NCBI RefSeq assembly: GCF_000167195.1
Contig: NZ_AADV02000001.1
Location: 186,001-250,000, forward strand
Source of the DNA: Crocosphaera watsonii WH 8501
GTDB taxonomy: Bacteria; Cyanobacteriota; Cyanobacteriia; Cyanobacteriales; Microcystaceae
Direction: 5' to 3'
Length of the DNA stretch: 64,000 bases
Shown: positions 1 to 42,238 of the stretch, one piece after another
How the letters are laid out: every line of letters starts with the position of its first letter
Position numbering within the stretch: position 1 is the first letter of the stretch
The notes under the pieces: model-generated
Databases searched by the model: none
Told to the model about the DNA's origin: nothing
Seen by the model: only the letters and a program-made list of their open reading frames with translations
Position numbers and translations under genes: made by a program

Positions 1-1244
1 GATTTATTAGTCTTCAAATACTGTTCCCAATCACGGGGTAAAACCACAGCTAATTTTCTGGCAGCCCACAAATTTACATAAGAAAGAAGTGTTAGTTTAA
101 ACCAATTTTCTTCATGATGTACATCGGGAGTTAAATAAGATGTCATCAATAATCTTTGTTTACCAAATCGAAAAAGATGTTCCATGTCATAACGTTGTCG
201 ATAACACTGATAACAATCAACTAAACTTAACTCATCGCGCCGAGAACCAATAACAATAAGCCACATAGGTTTCCAAATACTATTTCTTTCTTGAGCTCTG
301 ACAACAATCTGGAGTAAAGTAAAGGGGTGATTGTTCATTTTATAGTTTTTAGTTCCTCTCATTAACATCTGTTTTCATCCCGAAATAGTCACTGTTAATT
401 GACGACCTTTTTTCGTTGTAAAGGGAACATGATGAACTTCATCAGGTTCAGTCCAAGTTTGGTCATCTTTAAGGTCAAATTTATCCCCATACCAACGGGG
501 ATGTCCCGAAGTTTTGGCTTGATTTGGATCCCGAATAAATTGACGATAAAAAACTCGGTCACTTCTAACTCTTGTAATAGTAACTACGTCTTCATGCTTA
601 ACTTGTTCCCCAATAAAATCCTTTTGGCTGTAGTCACTATCAGCCACTAAGACAGATAATTTATCAGAAAATAAAGAACTTTGCCAGATTTTTTTTAGTT
701 GTTGATTGCCTTGATTTACTCCTTTATGTTTAGAGGGAACTCGCTCTCCTGATAAGGGGACAGCCCAAGGGACTTTTTCTGTGTCTATTTGGTCAGGTAA
801 AGCGCAGACAACGGAATAACAATGTCCAATATTAATGGGTTTATTTCCCTTAATTGGATTGGGGTAATGAATAAAGGTTTTATCCGCTAACGTTTCGGCA
901 AACGGTCGTGGACAGGGAGTTGTGTCAATACCAAATAAGATATAATGTTTTGAAGTGGGAGGAATTGTTCTCGATACCGCTGAAAATAAAGTCTCAATTC
1001 TCTGTTCATAATTAGGGTCAGTTTGAGTGGGTAAAAACTATTGAATTCCTCTATATAAACTGTTATAATCTCTTCTAAATAAAGGATTGAGAGACAATTC
1101 AACGACTGAGTGAGCTTGTTGGTTACTGGAGAGGGCATCGAGTAATTCTATAATAGTTTCTTTTCTAGCTTTTAGTCCTTGGAAGAGGTTAGACCTCCAC
1201 ACCAGGAATTCCTCGACAGACGTAGCCGTTTCATTTTTGGTCAT
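1..1244 (-). pseudogene. IS4/IS701-type DDE transposase, copy A, two nonsense codons
   Basis: The reading frame starts at 1244 with MTKNETATSVEEF and runs off the left edge. It matches the 479-codon transposase frame at 40213-41652. Two stop codons interrupt it: TAG at 1040-1038, where copy B has GAG (Glu), and TGA at 377-375, where copy B has TGG (Trp). The catalytic C-terminal part carries Y-RQ-R-YDM-E-HLFRFG-K, a match to the Y(2)R(3)E(6)K signature of the IS4 superfamily; in this copy it lies near 120-170. The gene cannot make full-length transposase unless both stops are read through. Family placement between IS4 and IS701 is not certain. Confidence 0.85.
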
Positions 1245-1268: not shown

Positions 1269-1290
1269 TTAGCGGAATATATACGCTAAC
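1269..1290. promoter_or_regulatory. Imperfect palindrome between the two divergent IS genes, copy A
   Basis: TTAGCG-GAATATATA-CGCTAAC lies in the 79-bp gap between the transposase start (1244) and the start of the 131-residue gene (1324). It resembles the palindromes just inside both ends of the element (1808-1829 here; 39629-39650 and 41734-41755 in copy B). The position suits an operator controlling both genes, but no binding protein is known from the sequence alone. Confidence 0.5.
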
Positions 1291-1323
1291 GTCAAAAGAG
1301 GTTGTTTGTTATAGTTAAGGCTA

Positions 1324-1719
1324 ATGTCATCACATTCCGAACTTAAGACCAGTCAAGATGTCCACCTGAGAGCCAAACAAATTAAGAGTCTAATTCGCTC
1401 TCTTAAACAGAAAATAAAGAAAATTGAACGGGAAGGGGAAGTAGCACCAGCTAATTGTCATATTATTCGTTATCAGGTTAATGGAAAGGGAACAATCTAC
1501 TGGTATTATAAACTACAGGCTGCTGAATCAATTTTTCCTATGGCCACTAATAATGAGAAAAAAACCAAATATAAATATTTAGGACGAGCCGAAAGTTCTG
1601 CTCATATTGATGCTGTAGAAAAACTCACTAGAAGAAATCTCATTGATGAATTAGAACGAGTCATTCAATCTCTAACGGAAAGCTACTTAGATATCTATAT
1701 TGGAACCGAAACTGAATGA
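1324..1719 (+). CDS. IS-borne accessory protein, 131 aa, unknown function (copy A)
   Basis: I do not recognise the family. The protein is charged and mostly helical-looking: a Lys-rich N-terminal helix (residues about 15-40, LRAKQIKSLIRSLKQKIKK), a middle part with GTIYWYYKLQ (about 57-66) and a Lys-rich KKTKYKYLGRA segment (about 79-89), then a helical C-terminus. The ATG at 1324 is chosen because it is the start shared with the copy at 40133. It is divergent from the transposase, within the same element. Both copies are intact and differ at only one residue (Glu or Gly in LGRA-E/G-SSAH), while both transposases are broken. A DNA-binding or regulatory role is inference from the basic N-terminus and the nearby palindromes. 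Confidence 0.75.
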   Translation: MSSHSELKTSQDVHLRAKQIKSLIRSLKQKIKKIEREGEVAPANCHIIRYQVNGKGTIYWYYKLQAAESIFPMATNNEKKTKYKYLGRAESSAHIDAVEKLTRRNLIDELERVIQSLTESYLDIYIGTETE

Positions 1720-1803
1720 AGCTATTTAATATTTAAAATCCCCTAAAAAGATGGAAAGAGAGTTTTTAAAATCACCTTAATTCTCTATTTTAGCTCTGGA
1801 GAT

Positions 1804-3135
1804 ATGTTTAGCGTAAAATTTACGCTAACAATTGTTTTTTGTCCAAAGTCCAATAACCTTCATCAAGAGGTTAAGAAAAAAGGCCCTTTTACCGAGGCAG
1901 GGATTAAACAATTTTTGACGGAACTCTTACCCATCCTAGAGTATATCCATTCTCAGAAAGTCATTCACCGTGACATCAAACCCGCTAACCTCATTCGCTC
2001 TCAAAAAGACAGTAAACTGGTGTTGATTGACTTTGGAGCCGTGAAAAATCAAGTCAATTCTATGGTAGCCAATAACACTCAAACCGCCTTTACCGCTTTT
2101 GCCGTGGGAACTGCCGGTTTTGCTCCTCCCGAACAAATGGCTATGCGTCCTGTTTACGCCAGTGATATTTATGCGGTGGGTGTTACCTGTGTGTACTTAT
2201 TAACCGCTAAAACCCCTAAAGATATTGGTTGTGACCCCGAAACTGGGGAAATTGCTTGGGAACCCTACGTGGATATTAGCTATTCCTTGGCCAAAGTTCT
2301 CAAAAAGATGTTAGAGGTATCGGTTAAACATCGCTACAAGTCAGCCGAACAAGTCCTAGATGCTATGGCCATGGCCCCTTATGAACAAGGGATGCAAGAT
2401 AGTATGACCACCATGATCTCAGGGTTCAAGACTTCCGGTAGCCCATCAACTCCCAATTGTTCCGTGAGTACAGGTTTAATTACTACATCACCATCGACGA
2501 GAACTCGAGGAAATACCGTTTCTTCCGTTTCTACTGAACTCAATAAACCTGTCTCTATTAGCGTTAACCGTGGAGGTGGAGGTGGAGGTGGTGCGGCTGC
2601 ACCAGGAAGTGTTTATAATATGGCTCATGGGGCAACTTCTACCCGTCGTCGTGGCCGTGGAAAAACTGCTTTTTCTGATGCCACGGAACCTAAAAAAAAG
2701 AAGAAAAAATGGCGAAGTAAAACCTTATTAAAAGCTTACAATAAAGGTCGTCGGGATTTTGCTCATCAAGAATTAAATGAACTCAATTTATCCAAAGCTT
2801 TTTTACCAGGAATTAATTGTTATGACTCCAAATTAAGTCGTATTAATTTACAAGGCGCTGAGTTATCTCGTGCGGATCTTGGCCGAGCAGATTTAAGCGA
2901 AGCTATTATGAAAAATGCTAATCTTAATGAAGCTTATTTGGGTTATGCTAACCTCAATGGAGCGGATTTAAGGGGGGCTAATTTATGTGGAGCTAATTTG
3001 AATTATGCTAACCTACAAGGGGCTAATCTTTGTGGGGTCGATCTCAATAGTGCTAGAATTACTGAGGCTCAATTATCCGTAGCAAAAACCAATTGGCGTA
3101 CAGTTATGCCTAGTGGAAAAAGAGGTTTTTGGTAA
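1804..3135 (+). pseudogene. Ser/Thr protein kinase with pentapeptide repeats, N-lobe lost to IS
   Basis: The open frame has 443 codons, but about the first 16 are IS sequence. The remaining kinase part has the catalytic loop HRDIKPAN (residues 55-62), DFG (76-78) and an activation-segment end GTAGFAPPEQ. The glycine-rich loop, the ATP-anchoring Lys and the helix-C Glu, all expected before residue 20, are missing, so ATP binding should fail. After the kinase come a Ser/Thr-rich linker, a run of glycines (about 259-266), a run of lysines (about 297-302), and a C-terminal block of pentapeptide repeats A(D/N)LxX (about 350-420). This architecture is common in cyanobacterial SpkB-like kinases. The C-terminal half is still open, so the decapitation may be recent. 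Confidence 0.85.
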
Positions 3136-3166: not shown

Positions 3167-3604
3167 ATGAATAAAGTAGAAATTAAAAATACTAACTATC
3201 AAGATAATTTAGAAGCTATTGAAAATATCAGAATCCGTGTTTTTCAACAAGAACAGGGGGTAGATCCGGCTTTAGAATTTGATGGTTACGATGATTATTG
3301 TGTTCATTTTATAGCTTATTTAGCTCAAAAACCCATAGGAACAACAAGAATTAGATATATTGATGAAGATACTGTTAAAATTGAACGATTGGCTGTTTTA
3401 TCGACCGCAAGAGGTCAAGGGGTAGGCACAGCATTAATGAAAGAGGCGATCGCCTTTATTAAAGAACAAGAAAAATATAAGCAAATTGTTATTCATGCTC
3501 AAGTTTATGTTCAAAGTTTGTACGAAAAATTAGGCTTTGAACCAGTAGGCGATCTCTTTACAGAAGGGGAAATTATTCATATAAAAATGGTTAAATACAT
3601 CTAG
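3167..3604 (+). CDS. GNAT-family N-acetyltransferase
   Basis: A 145-residue protein with the GNAT fold signature: the acetyl-CoA loop RGQGVGTAL follows an ERLAVL strand (residues about 74-92). It probably transfers an acetyl group from acetyl-CoA to a small-molecule or protein amine; the substrate cannot be read. It lies 31 bp after the kinase remnant and about 90 bp before crtD, all on the same strand. Length is normal for a one-domain GNAT and no lesion is visible. Confidence 0.85.
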   Translation: MNKVEIKNTNYQDNLEAIENIRIRVFQQEQGVDPALEFDGYDDYCVHFIAYLAQKPIGTTRIRYIDEDTVKIERLAVLSTARGQGVGTALMKEAIAFIKEQEKYKQIVIHAQVYVQSLYEKLGFEPVGDLFTEGEIIHIKMVKYI

Positions 3605-37657: not shown

Positions 37658-39348
37658 GGGTTTGCTGAATAAAAGCAAAACCCTATTCTTTAAAAGGTTA
37701 CACCCATATTCGCGATCGCAAAAAAGATCAGCTTTGTCGGCTACAAACCGCTATAATTGGTAGAAACACCTCCCAGTTGTTGGTCAAGAACAAATGTATC
37801 GAAAAGAGGAGCAACCTTTACCGCCCCCAGAAAAATTTGAATTACCTTTCGAGGGCAAATTGTCCCCCAATAATCGTTGGGTAATCATGGCAGAGTTGAT
37901 ACCTTGGGATGATTTTGAGGAAGAATATGCTAAACTTCTTTCAGCAGAAAAAGGTGCGCCAGCCAAACTATTTAGAATGGCATTAGGGACATTAATTATT
38001 AAGGAAAAATTAGGAACAAGTGATAGAGAAACTATAGAACAGATTAGAGAAAATCCCTATCTACAATACTTTATAGGTTTAAATTGTTATCAACAAGAGC
38101 CACCACTGGAATCTTCAATGCTAGTTCATTTTAGGAAAAGAATTGATGGAGAATTGATAAACAAAATCAATAAAAAAATAGTAAAAAGAGAAATAGACAA
38201 GAGTGATAAAGAAGTAAAAAAAAAGGATTGTCTCCAAGAAAAAGGAGAAAAAATAAAAAATAAAGGTAAACTAATTTTAGATGCGACTTGTGCGCCAGCA
38301 GACATCAAATACCCAACGGATTTAGGCATATTAAATCAAGCCAGAATTGAGACAGAAAGAATAATAGATAATCTTTATAAACCATTAAGAGTAAAATTGA
38401 GAAAAAAGCCGAGAACTTCTAGAATAATTGCTAGAAAGGAATACTTAAAAGTAGCTAAAAAACGAAAAGTATCTTATCAAGAAAGAAGAAAAGCTATCGG
38501 GAAACAGTTAAAATACCTTAAGAAAAATTTAGGAAATATAGAAGACTTAATTCAAGCTGGGGCTTCCCTGGAAAATCTGAGTAAAAGACAGAAAAATTGT
38601 CTAGAGACTATCAAAAAAGTTTATGAACAACAACAGTCAATGTGGGAGAATAAGACCCAGAGTGTTCCTCAAAGAATTGTAAGTTTAACTCAACCGCATA
38701 TTCGTCCAATAGTGAGGGGAAAAGTAGGAAAACCAATAGAGTTTGGAGCTAAACTCTCAGTAAGCTGTGTAGATAACTATGTGTTTCTAGACAAAATAAG
38801 TTGGGAAAACTTCAATGAATCTTGTCATTTAAAAGAACAAGTAGAAAAGTATAAAGAAACGTTTGGCTATTATCCCGAATCCGTCCATGTAGATAAAATT
38901 TATCGAACTAGGGAAAACAGAAATTGGTGTAAGGAAAGAGGGATAAGAATCAGTGGTCCGAAGTTAGGAAGACCTCCGAAAAATGTCAGTGAAGAAGAAA
39001 AGAAACAAGCCCACTCCGATGAATGCTTCCGTAATGCTATTGAGGGAAAGTTTGGACAAGCTAAACGAAGATTTAGCCTAAATCTCGTGATGACAAAACT
39101 CCCTGAAACCTCCATTACATCTATTGCTATTACATTTTTATTTGTCAATCTTTCTAAACTTCTGAGGCAGTTTTTGTCGCTTTTTTTGTCCTTATTTACT
39201 AATAATAGAACAGGGGAACTCATCAAACCGCCTTTCATTAATTTTGATTATACTTTAAACAATTTTTATGTACTAAAACTTATTGATTTGTCAGAAAATT
39301 CTTGGTCAAAAGTGGCATAAATTTTGGAGAAACTTTTTCAGCAAACCC
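37658..39348. mobile_element. IS5/IS1182-type element, intact copy
   Basis: Bounded by GGGTTTGCTGAA at the left and TTCAGCAAACCC at the right; 1691 bp. The left flank ends TTAATTA, as does that of copy 2, but the right flank is AAATAGC instead of a duplicate, so the right side was changed after insertion. Confidence 0.85.
37794..39320 (+). CDS. IS5/IS1182-type DDE transposase, intact
   Basis: A 508-residue transposase. The N-terminal DUF772-like part reads WVIMAELIPWDDFEEEYAKL ... MALGTLIIKEKLGTSDRETIEQIRENPYLQYFIGL. Catalytic residues are likely D in LILDATCAPADI, D in ESVHVDKIYRT and E in RNAIEGKFGQAKRRF. A Lys-rich linker separates the parts. The start ATG at 37794 follows a short leader. 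The second copy at 59435-61124 carries two inactivating changes, so only this one can supply the enzyme. Confidence 0.9.
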   Translation: MYRKEEQPLPPPEKFELPFEGKLSPNNRWVIMAELIPWDDFEEEYAKLLSAEKGAPAKLFRMALGTLIIKEKLGTSDRETIEQIRENPYLQYFIGLNCYQQEPPLESSMLVHFRKRIDGELINKINKKIVKREIDKSDKEVKKKDCLQEKGEKIKNKGKLILDATCAPADIKYPTDLGILNQARIETERIIDNLYKPLRVKLRKKPRTSRIIARKEYLKVAKKRKVSYQERRKAIGKQLKYLKKNLGNIEDLIQAGASLENLSKRQKNCLETIKKVYEQQQSMWENKTQSVPQRIVSLTQPHIRPIVRGKVGKPIEFGAKLSVSCVDNYVFLDKISWENFNESCHLKEQVEKYKETFGYYPESVHVDKIYRTRENRNWCKERGIRISGPKLGRPPKNVSEEEKKQAHSDECFRNAIEGKFGQAKRRFSLNLVMTKLPETSITSIAITFLFVNLSKLLRQFLSLFLSLFTNNRTGELIKPPFINFDYTLNNFYVLKLIDLSENSWSKVA

Positions 39349-39604
39349 CAAATAGCTTGACGGCGTTTTTTCGGATCTTTTTCTTGCAATTCGTCAAGCA
39401 ATGTTTCAACTTCATCTCCACTGGGAATACGGGTTGTTTTTTGAATGGCAACAACATCTTCTGAATCTGGTGTTTCCAACGTTACTTCTGGATCCATTTG
39501 CGATTCAATTTGATTGTTATCATATGAAAACAATGGAGTTTTAGGTTCTGGTTTGTTGTTATGATCCTCATAATTTTCATCAAAGTTGGTGCTTGTTGTT
39601 GTAT
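39349..39604 (-). pseudogene. Fragment of an unknown host gene between two IS elements
   Basis: About 85 codons on the minus strand, bounded by IS copy B at its start and the IS5-type element at its end. It reads TTTSTNFDENYED, a Pro/Glu/Ser-rich stretch, then SGDEVETLLDELQEKDPKKRRQAIWGL. The last part looks like the start of a HEAT-like repeat (KDPxxRRxAIWGL), and the acidic stretch like a linker. No function can be given. Confidence 0.5.
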
Positions 39605-39737
39605 TGGACTTTGGATAAAAAACAATTGTTAGCGTAAATTTTACGCTAAACATATCTCCAGAGCTAAAATAGATAATTAAGGTGATTTTAAAAACTCTCT
39701 TTCCATCTTTTTAGGGGATTTTAAATATTAAATAGCT

Positions 39738-40133
39738 TCATTCAGTTTCGGTTCCAATATAGATATCTAAGTAGCTTTCAGTTAGAGATTGAATGACTCG
39801 TTCTAATTCATCAATGAGATTTCTTCTAGTGAGTTTTTCTACAGCATCAATATGAGCAGAACTTCCGGCTCGTCCTAAATATTTATATTTGGTTTTTTTC
39901 TCATTATTAGTGGCCATAGGAAAAATTGATTCAGCAGCCTGTAGTTTATAATACCAGTAGATTGTTCCCTTTCCATTAACCTGATAACGAATAATATGAC
40001 AATTAGCTGGTGCTACTTCCCCTTCCCGTTCAATTTTCTTTATTTTCTGTTTAAGAGAGCGAATTAGACTCTTAATTTGTTTGGCTCTCAGGTGGACATC
40101 TTGACTGGTCTTAAGTTCGGAATGTGATGACAT
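39738..40133 (-). CDS. IS-borne accessory protein, 131 aa, unknown function (copy B)
   Basis: Identical to the copy at 1324-1719 except for Gly in place of Glu in LGRA-G-SSAH. The shared ATG is at 40133; an upstream in-frame ATG exists only in this copy, created by a base difference in the leader. It faces away from the transposase across an 79-bp gap with a palindrome. Being intact in both copies while the transposase is broken in both suggests it is the better preserved gene of this element. Confidence 0.75.
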   Translation of the reverse strand: MSSHSELKTSQDVHLRAKQIKSLIRSLKQKIKKIEREGEVAPANCHIIRYQVNGKGTIYWYYKLQAAESIFPMATNNEKKTKYKYLGRAGSSAHIDAVEKLTRRNLIDELERVIQSLTESYLDIYIGTETE

Positions 40134-40166
40134 TAGCCTTAACTGTAACAAACAACCTCTTTTGAT

Positions 40167-40188
40167 GTTAGCGTATATATTCCGCTAA
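40167..40188. promoter_or_regulatory. Imperfect palindrome between the two divergent IS genes, copy B
   Basis: GTTAGCG-TATATATTC-CGCTAA in the gap between the accessory gene and the transposase. Same site as 1269-1290 in copy A. Confidence 0.5.
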
Positions 40189-40212
40189 TTTATAAGGTAA
40201 TAAATTTTAAAA

Positions 40213-41652
40213 ATGACCAAAAATGAAACGGCTACGTCTGTCGAGGAATTCCTGGTGTGGAGGTCTAACCTCTTCCAAGGACTAAAAGCTAGAAAAGAAA
40301 CTATTATAGAATTACTCGATGCCCTCTCCAGTAACCAACAAGCTCACTCAGTCGTTGAATTGTCTCTCAATCCTTTATTTAGAAGAGATTATAACAGTTT
40401 ATATAGAGGAATTCAAGAGTTTTTACCCACTCAAACTGACCCTAATTATGAACAGAGAATTGAGACTTTATTTTCAGCGGTATCGAGAACAATTCCTCCC
40501 ACTTCAAAACATTATAACTTATTTGGTATTGACACAACTCCCTGTCCACGACCGTTTGCCGAAACGTTAGCGGATAAAACCTTTATTCATTACCCCAATC
40601 CAATTAAGGGAAATAAACCCATTAATATTGGACATTGTTATTCCGTTATCTGCGCTTTACCTGACCAAATAGACACAGAAAAAGTCCCTTGGGCTGTCCC
40701 CTTATCAGGAGAGCGAGTCCCCTCTAAACATAAAGGAGTAAATTAAGGCAATCAACAACTAAAAAAAATCTGGCAAAGTTCTTTATTTTCTGATAAATTA
40801 TCTGTCTTAGTGGCTGATAGTGACTACAGCCAAAAGGATTTTATTGGGGAACAAGTTAAGCATGAAGACGTAGTTACTATTACAAGAGTTAGAAGTGACC
40901 GAGTTTTTTATCGTCAATTTATTCGGGACCCAAATCAAGCCAAAACTTCGGGACATCCCCGTTGGTATGGGGATAAATTTGACCTTAAAGATGACCAAAC
41001 TTGGACTGAACCTGATGAAGTTCATCATGTTCCCTTTACAACGAAAAAAGGTCGTCAATTAACAGTGACTATTTCGGGATGGAAACAGATGTTAATGAGA
41101 GGAACTAAAAACTATAAAATGAACAATCACCCCTTTACTTTACTCCAGATTGTTGTCAGAGCTCAAGAAAGAAATAGTATTTGGAAACCTATGTGGCTTA
41201 TTGTTATTGGTTCTCGGCGCGATGAGTTAAGTTTAGTTGATTGTTATCAGTGTTATCGACAACGTTATGACATGGAACATCTTTTTCGATTTGGTAAACA
41301 AAGATTATTGATGACATCTTATTTAACTCCCGATGTACATCATGAAGAAAATTGGTTTAAACTAACACTTCTTTCTTCTGTAAATTTGTGGGCTGCCAGA
41401 AAATTAGCTGTGGTTTTACCCCGTGATTGGGAACAGTATTTGAAGACTAATAAATCCATCAAAATCACCCCTAGTCTAGTTCAAAGAGACTTTTCAAGAA
41501 TAATTACGACCTTGGGGACTTTCGCCAAATTTCCCAAACGTCGAGGTTTTTCTTCCGGACGTATTAAAGGTTACAAAAAAGCCCCACGAACTCGTCATGA
41601 TGTTATCAAGAAAGGGAGCAAAAAATCAACTGAAAACTTAAAAGCTCCTTAG
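40213..41652 (+). pseudogene. IS4/IS701-type DDE transposase, copy B, one nonsense codon
   Basis: A 479-codon frame interrupted only by TAA at 40744-40746, where copy A has CAA (KHKGVN-Q-GNQQLKKIW). An Asp-containing VADSDYSQKDFIG follows at 40808 and the Y(2)R(3)E(6)K signature YRQRYDMEHLFRFGK lies near 41250-41295. The basic C-terminus (RRGFSSGRIKGYKKAPRTRH) is typical. Copy A lacks this stop but has two others, so neither copy is intact while a recombinant of the two could be. Confidence 0.85.
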
Positions 41653-41779
41653 TTTTCCTCAGAATCTATAGATTAGCCCTATTTGTCAGCCAATTTTATT
41701 GACTGATACAGAGCCGATATTTTGGGATTTTAGTTCAGCGTAAAATATACGCTAACAAACTTTTTTTGTCCAAAGTCCA

Positions 41780-42238
41780 ATGAATAAGAACATACTCTTT
41801 TAAACTGGGACAAGTTTGATAATCACTGAATTTTTGACCTCTATCAAATGCTTCTGTTGATTTCGATAATACCTCTATTATCAAAAGAGGATAAAGAATA
41901 AAATCATCTGTATTATTAATCTCCCTTTCATCACAAACAACTGCAATATCTGGATAATAATAACAATTTGCTTCTTCCAATCTAACCTTAATATCTGAAT
42001 TTAAAACAAGACAAGGACTATTTTCTAAATGATTACCGAGAATCATAGTCAAATTACTTGCTAAAACAATATGAGACTTTTTTGCCCCTACCATTGCATA
42101 AACTTGTCCCTTTCGGTATTCATGTTTGATAGGACTAACTCTTTCTCCCTCTAAATATGTTTCTGGAGATATATAAAAAAATTGATTATTTGTTATCATA
42201 ATTGATGTATTAGTTTCTACCCCTGCATAAGTCCCCAT
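41780..42238 (-). pseudogene. Uma2-family (PD-(D/E)xK-like) protein, C-terminus cut by IS
   Basis: About 150 residues of a Uma2/DUF820 protein: SPETYLEGERVSPIKHEYRKGQVYAMVGAKKSHI, then YYYPDIAVVCD and LYPLLIIEVLSKSTEAFDRGQKFSDYQ, and LKEYVLI. The D and E-V-L-S residues are the family's nuclease-like core. The last 14 codons (after VLIHW) come from the IS end at 41779. The start may be at 42238 or at the inner Met of MITNNQFF (42199). Uma2 proteins are very numerous in cyanobacteria and of unknown role. Confidence 0.85.

Follow-up and report, generated by a model that had tools for sequence, protein, structure and literature searches.

The window analysed here, a 64,000-nucleotide stretch of the Crocosphaera watsonii WH 8501 genome, contains two copies of an insertion sequence, each with a transposase gene and a small gene in the opposite direction. 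Copy 1 is truncated by the window start, so that just one of its ends lies within the window. The features of both copies are as follows.

Copy 1
1..1244, minus strand: transposase, starting at 1244, broken by stops and extending beyond the window edge
1269..1289, no strand: operator palindrome, exact in the pattern scan
1324..1719, plus strand: small gene, 131 aa, intact; an ORF whose product differs at one residue from the copy 2 protein
1808..1828, no strand: near-end palindrome, exact in the pattern scan
1842..1854, minus strand: terminal inverted repeat (TIR), from copy comparison
Copy 2
39603..41781, no strand: whole element, 2179 bp, ends ATTGGACTTTGGA / TCCAAAGTCCAAT; limits from comparison with copies elsewhere in the genome
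39603..39615, plus strand: TIR on the small-gene side, from the ends and copy comparison
39628..39650, no strand: near-end site, exact palindrome core 39629-39649; sole terminator-like match within 39500-41900
39738..40133, minus strand: small gene, 131 aa, intact; from the ORF, family searches and an AlphaFold2 model of window protein P0001
40167..40189, no strand: operator site between the divergent genes, exact palindrome core 40168-40188
40213..40746, plus strand: N-terminal part of the transposase, broken by an in-frame stop; NF041680 E 3.4e-50, DDE_5 E 1.9e-19
40810..41652, plus strand: C-terminal part of the transposase; NF041680 E 3.4e-97
41735..41755, no strand: far-end palindrome, from the pattern scan; one mismatch in a half-site
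41769..41781, minus strand: TIR on the transposase side, from the ends and copy comparison

The original prediction described an intact 131-residue gene opposite to the transposase in both copies, and this is confirmed at 1324-1719 (plus strand) and 39738-40133 (minus strand). Matching palindromes at the ends and between the genes, also described there, are present, with three in copy 2, but they measure 21 bp and not 22. Both copies do carry a transposase gene as claimed, but it is interrupted in each, the intact versions lying in other copies of the genome; an open 479-aa frame is present at locus L036, where both end sites are 25 bp from the element tips. The palindrome TTAGCG-N9-CGCTAA, allowing one mismatch, was found five times in the window, always within the two element copies, as compared with a mean of 0.07 and a maximum of 1 in shuffles.

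Assignment of the transposase to an IS4 or IS701 type could not be upheld. Whole copies from this genome match NCBIfam model NF041680 over its full length with 533 bits (cut-off 440), the two halves of the broken window copy scoring 171 and 326 separately, and the Pfam domain is DDE_5. The C-terminal part of the window copy reached only 48 bits against the IS701 model NF049999 (cut-off 170), and the window element only 17 bits against the IS4 models (cut-offs 152 and 115).

Elsewhere in the genome we found 100 matches to the small gene and 111 to the C-terminal part of the transposase, fragments included, most of them >90% identical. By hand count of the matches listed, 66 of 77 full-length small genes were stop-free, as were 29 of 66 full-length transposase C-terminal parts in the 482-aa frame. 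Because the two genes differ in length, these counts do not show that the small gene is specially retained, and the idea of selective retention was dropped. No clear target-site duplications were seen in the copy flanks examined (copy L048 may show CCAT), and a promoter scan of the element gave matches not above those of shuffles. Open reading frames also cross the element ends: a 443-aa frame at 1804-3135, with kinase-like and pentapeptide-like stretches recognized by eye, has its listed ATG inside the near end of copy 1; a 115-aa frame at 39306-39653 has its listed ATG inside the near end of copy 2; and a 167-aa frame at 41735-42238 enters from outside and stops inside the far end of copy 2.

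Judged from sequence comparison, the small protein forms a separate family, absent from the libraries searched. Searches of Pfam, PHROGs and PDB sequences, and of NCBIfam for the window protein, gave no match above cut-off or beyond noise, and BLASTP showed no similarity to the two parts of its own transposase (E 18 and 5.1). Among the 30 plasmid records listed out of 41, the matching stretch was annotated as a hypothetical protein or not at all, a few bearing an additional overlapping name. An AlphaFold2 model of P0001 from a 44-row alignment is confident (mean pLDDT 91.7) and predicts a helix at 4-37, strands at 45-53, 58-66 and 83-87, and a helix at 92-129. Foldseek found nothing at E 0.001 for this model in PDB and BFVD, an absence that is no proof of a new fold. 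DUF6788 (PF20586), which we take to share a similar aromatic/glycine strand pattern and insertion-sequence neighbours, was considered as kin and is unsupported at profile level: PF20586 has 0 matches in the C. watsonii genome that holds 100 small-protein matches and, across 59 genomes, one match in one genome, below cut-off.

Small-protein matches, some weak, occur in 16 of the 59 genomes and in 27 of 386 cyanobacterial genomes spread over the phylum, our own included in both counts. A search of genome contigs, started from one peptide pattern, yielded 127 relative stretches. The best 80 of these were kept, and all are titled cyanobacteria except L120, a Gracilibacteria MAG; with a single starting pattern and only the best 80 of 127 retained, spread outside cyanobacteria is not excluded. 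L120 shares 2849 identical bases with L058, from a genome of the window's own cyanobacterial family, and is therefore probably misbinned.

These relatives do not keep to one kind of element. Small-protein homologues lie in cyanobacterial elements with seven transposase types, a breadth that the original prediction had not anticipated:

NF041680 (window type): TIR TTGGACTTTGGACAAAA; passes the curated cut-off
IS4 NF033592 (L117): TIR CAATACTGCTCGGTTAAGG; passes the curated cut-off
Tn5-like IS4 NF033590 (L151): TIR CTGACTTTTCACGGGATGTGGAAAAG; passes the curated cut-off
ISKra4 NF033572 (L148, L059): TIR of such elements GGGAGCATCCCA, in L111 CGGGTGAGCGAAAAAATGG; passes the curated cut-off
IS1182 NF033551 (L102): TIR CTGATACTGTTGATGAACTTAACAAAAG; passes the curated cut-off
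rve/DUF6399 type (L092, L082): TIR GGCTACCAACTTAAGGCGGGACAA; no NCBIfam cut-off passed
IS701-like type (L055 and kin): no NCBIfam cut-off passed

Types were told apart by family model and TIR, which leaves remote kinship possible; all hosts are DDE or rve, several with Pfam DDE_Tnp_1, so that "different" does not mean without remote kinship. In most types the small gene and the transposase gene diverge; in the Tn5-like and most of the ISKra4 types the small gene follows the transposase gene on one strand. IS5 was dropped as a host type. At L069 an IS5 gene stands beside the small gene, yet a 586-bp stretch surrounding the latter is 74% identical to the ISKra4-type element L111, so the IS5 gene is probably there by chance.

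What most of these elements share is the palindrome. In 61 non-redundant loci drawn from 115 candidates, the site consensus is RTTMKCK-N9-MGMKAAY, with a 9-bp spacer. Allowing one mismatch, 52 of 60 loci with sequence carry a near-end site after the small gene and 45 of 60 an operator site before it; one or the other is present in 58 of 61 loci and both in 39. The remaining 22 lack one or both gene-side sites, with L113, L136 and L145 lacking both and L108 and L128 falling short because their contigs end. Background was low, with 3 matches in 150,836 flank bases outside elements and an average of 0.23 loci with a site in shuffled near-end windows. Since the consensus was drawn from the same loci, a less biased figure is the count of perfect 7-bp dyads at spacing 9, which takes no account of the consensus: downstream windows had one in 32 of 60 loci (0.6 in shuffles), upstream windows in 21 of 60 (0.9 in shuffles). 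Other odd spacings were also raised, as expected of arms around one centre.

In many loci a third site marks the far end. It was found 600-2300 bp upstream in 29 of the 45 loci with enough sequence, where about 1.5 were expected from the flank rate; in same-strand types it lies upstream of the transposase gene, and in the IS701-like elements checked there was none. TIRs stand directly outside both end sites in 25 of the 27 elements that have both (L131 and L143 fail), better than all of 100 shuffles. They comprise about eight sequences, with the TIR tip 25-70 bp from the end site. The operator and near-end sites of a locus agree in class at four variable positions more often than in any of 1000 shuffles (54 pairs, a figure inflated by related loci).

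Is the site tied to the gene or to the transposase? We retrieved 30 transposase loci for each of four types, 120 in total, without selecting for the small gene. The 7 loci with the gene had an exact site in 5 cases and a site with at most one mismatch in all 7, versus 3 and 15 of the 113 loci without it (Fisher 6e-6 for the exact site). Two of the 7 represent one place and two are in our own genome (L252, L280), and many of the 113 are partial or distant transposase relatives. The small gene does not always accompany this transposase, a point the original prediction had wished to see checked: 29 of 30 NF041680 loci fetched lack it. Palindromes do covary with the gene, a second check it had called for, with 28 of those 29 also lacking an exact site. 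It had named relatives without the gene, or palindromes that vary independently of it, as evidence against itself; such relatives exist, but they are mostly without the site too, so it is not refuted, one true exception (L254) aside. L254, in genome G118, belongs to NF041680, shares the TIR of the window element and has TTCGCG-type end sites at 1360-1382 and 3390-3412, with no trace of the small gene between them; it possibly depends on protein supplied in trans. The other exceptions, L189 and L192, are partial IS4 copies whose site follows the C-terminal end of the transposase, the position of the far end.

The same association appears between genomes: 11 of 23 genomes with a small-gene match have RTTCGCG-N9-CGCGAAY, against 9 of the other 326 (Fisher 8e-10). 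This test rests on two hand-counted lists and assumes that the genomes scanned for sites were among those searched for the gene. Genomes without a match are mostly unlisted, and the 23 include weak matches (G055, G223).

Two further elements of our own genome bear similar palindromes. A high-copy IS66-family element (L308-L313; in L308 the site is at 1959) has one TTAGCGGAGATTATCCGCTAA N9 dyad after its transposase, a pattern present at 298 places in the genome versus 0 for the reversed pattern. Another high-copy element (L335-L338, L313), whose transposase we take to be ISAzo13-like, has GTTCGCGGAAAGTATCCGCGAAC after that gene; RTTCGCG-N9-CGCGAAY has 51 sites in the genome versus 0 for the reversed pattern. 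No small gene was found in the stretches examined of either element, among the places listed (the first of the 298 and six of the 51), and in one of the two a T-rich stretch follows the palindrome. Terminators are one possibility for these dyads; another is that they are borrowed sites served in trans.

We compared the half-site consensus with every not-too-gappy alignment column in 67 family members. Eleven of 78 rows were dropped, L052 and L083 as not reading through residue 85 and L173, L145, L172, L136, L109, L138, L132, L124 and L128 as truncated or with a doubtful or no site; none seen contradicted the rule that follows. Half-site position 4 is C in all 60 proteins with His85 and A in all 7 with Tyr85, and residue 85 is the sole column matching one-to-one, column 101 also separating A from C with several residues per class. 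Position 7 is G in 59 of 59 proteins with Lys63 and T in 8 of 8 with Gln63; columns 83 and 65 likewise distinguish T from G, but here either each class has several residues or the difference is confined to the Gln63 clade. The G or A of position 1 is associated for the most part with residue 54 (Gly 45/51, Gln 13/15). Residues 63 and 85 fall in strands of the predicted sheet and residue 54 at the turn after the first strand. Half-site letters track small-protein residues across different transposases, in line with the covariation that the original prediction had asked to see tested.

The Tyr85/A rows form two clades, one of NF041680 hosts (L036, L051, L079) and one of L111, L059, L069 and L170, of which L059 is of ISKra4 type; a single clade is rejected (AU p 0.016). 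Two independent origins give a sign test p of 0.5, which could not reach 0.05, and Gln63/T has one origin, in one clade. Residues 85 and 63 were also spotted by eye before the formal column scan. Elements with the single TIR TTGGACTTTGGACAAAA have two site classes, TTAGCG in L036 and L078 and TTCGCG in L096, and their small proteins belong to different deep clades (L078 enters the tree as the identical locus L051), as if gene and sites had been exchanged together. In ISKra4-type elements, too, the sites are of more than one class: ATTCGCG, GTTCGCG or TTA type.

Sequence comparison shows that the gene family exists, that it lies inside the TIRs of different elements, and that its sites keep one spacing and covary with the protein. 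That the protein would bind these sites is strongly inferred, without binding data. On balance, we consider it probable that it is a sequence-specific DNA-binding regulator that acts at the operator and both ends to restrain its element, gene and sites forming a portable cassette. As a non-transposase DNA-binding protein, by inference a dimer, it would read two 7-bp half-sites 9 bp apart through its three-stranded sheet. Bound to the operator, it is inferred to repress its own gene and the transposase; bound at the ends, it might mask the DNA next to the TIRs or block transcription from outside. In same-strand types the far-end site could serve as transposase operator. The element would thereby limit its own activity, and this inferred effect on transposition may tighten with rising copy number, likewise an inference. 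The self-regulating element of the original prediction, with the small protein at ends and operator, is supported to this extent, binding and the effect on transposition being inferred. The cassette would have been acquired by different insertion-sequence families. With somewhat more reserve we lean towards a broader claim: a transposase-independent unit of one small DNA-binding protein and its three sites has repeatedly entered about seven cyanobacterial insertion-sequence families and evolves a simple code (residues 54, 63 and 85 versus half-site positions 1, 7 and 4), and it may act in trans on site-only elements, giving cross-family regulation in one genome.

The alternative that deserves most attention, unlikely in our estimation, is a positive architectural co-factor that joins or bends both ends for the transposase, the operator merely serving autoregulation. 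End sites close inside the TIRs are where a synapsis factor would sit, and the two long predicted helices could bridge sites. However, a factor that serves several transposase families is unlikely to contact each of them specifically, a far-end site is missing from the IS701-like elements checked, and 113 of the 120 fetched relatives of four transposases do without the small gene. Service of one protein family to different transposases favours a contact-free mechanism, such as repression or a roadblock, over a co-factor role. Should the palindromes instead be terminators or hairpins that keep transcription from entering the element, with the small gene an unrelated passenger, the terminator-like match at 39629-39649 and the palindromes of the two gene-less high-copy elements, one followed by Ts, would be accounted for. 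We judge this improbable: only 1 of 3 copy 2 palindromes scored as an intrinsic terminator, for which each site would need a GC-containing stem followed by a T-run, and the one match found does not exceed the shuffle mean of 1.6. Nor would terminators be expected to keep a fixed N9 spacer, to use a conserved half-site code, to recur between the divergent genes, to be rare where transposase relatives lack the gene, or to covary in their half-sites with protein residues.

A position 25-70 bp from the tips would also suit sub-terminal repeats bound by the transposase. To this we give scarcely any credence, as one palindrome class goes with different transposases and TIRs, most gene-less relatives of the same transposases lack it, and one palindrome lies beside the small gene inside the element. 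It is very doubtful, too, that the small gene is a selfish or immunity cassette without control over transposition, its sites only autoregulating and flanking it. Two of the three sites do flank the gene, and no others were seen in the IS701-like elements checked; against this, the third site recurs far upstream in 29 of 45 loci, with ~1.5 expected, and directly inside the opposite TIR in 25 of 27 elements tested.

A small protein that restrains its element from operator and ends has partial precedents. To our knowledge, where an insertion sequence encodes its own regulator, this is mostly a piece of the transposase. InsA of IS1 and OrfA of IS2 are reading frames that are also part of their transposases. 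In the portions of the sources available, both products repress transposase expression, OrfA at a position next to the left repeat's inner end (PMC8944449, PMC3299598). As far as those portions go, they are nearest to the small protein in role as element-encoded repressors of transposase, the role of the small protein being inferred; in contrast to them, it has no similarity to its own transposase, forms a separate family and is common to different transposase families. TnpR of Tn3 is encoded by a small gene divergent from the transposase, and the sites between the genes (res) repress both. The window element likewise has a divergent small gene with sites between the genes, but no recombinase domain is among the Pfam matches shown for the small protein, its sites are at both ends too, and it serves several insertion-sequence families. 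The c repressor of phage Mu has operators that overlap DNA needed for transposition. It resembles the small protein as an element repressor (inferred for the latter) with operators at transposition DNA; unlike it, the small protein has no family match and its hosts are insertion sequences, not phage.

Extra genes inside insertion sequences, unknown ORFs included, are known from a survey of the IS4 family (PMC2266710). In the part of that survey available, no tie of such passengers to matching end sites or to several transposase families is stated (PMC2266710). No description of such a cassette was found in the open PMC literature, searched without ISfinder or subscription papers. We rate a transposase-independent, portable control module as categorically new, the presumed role in self-restraint of an insertion sequence being already known. 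If the proposal is true, transposons of different families exchange control modules, which might account for elements regulating one another in cyanobacteria rich in insertion sequences, and a DNA-binding family (binding inferred) has been absent from the libraries searched here. His85 and Tyr85 proteins against TTC and TTA sites provide a direct and cheap test.

The small-protein family also has a longer, distant branch (L062, L072, L073, L074, L180). No recognizable DDE transposase adjoins L062 or L072-L074, and L062, L072, L074 and L180 have no Pfam family above cut-off. The gene adjoining L062 and L180 is presumably Rpn-like, and at L073 and L074 two genes of the branch stand in tandem.
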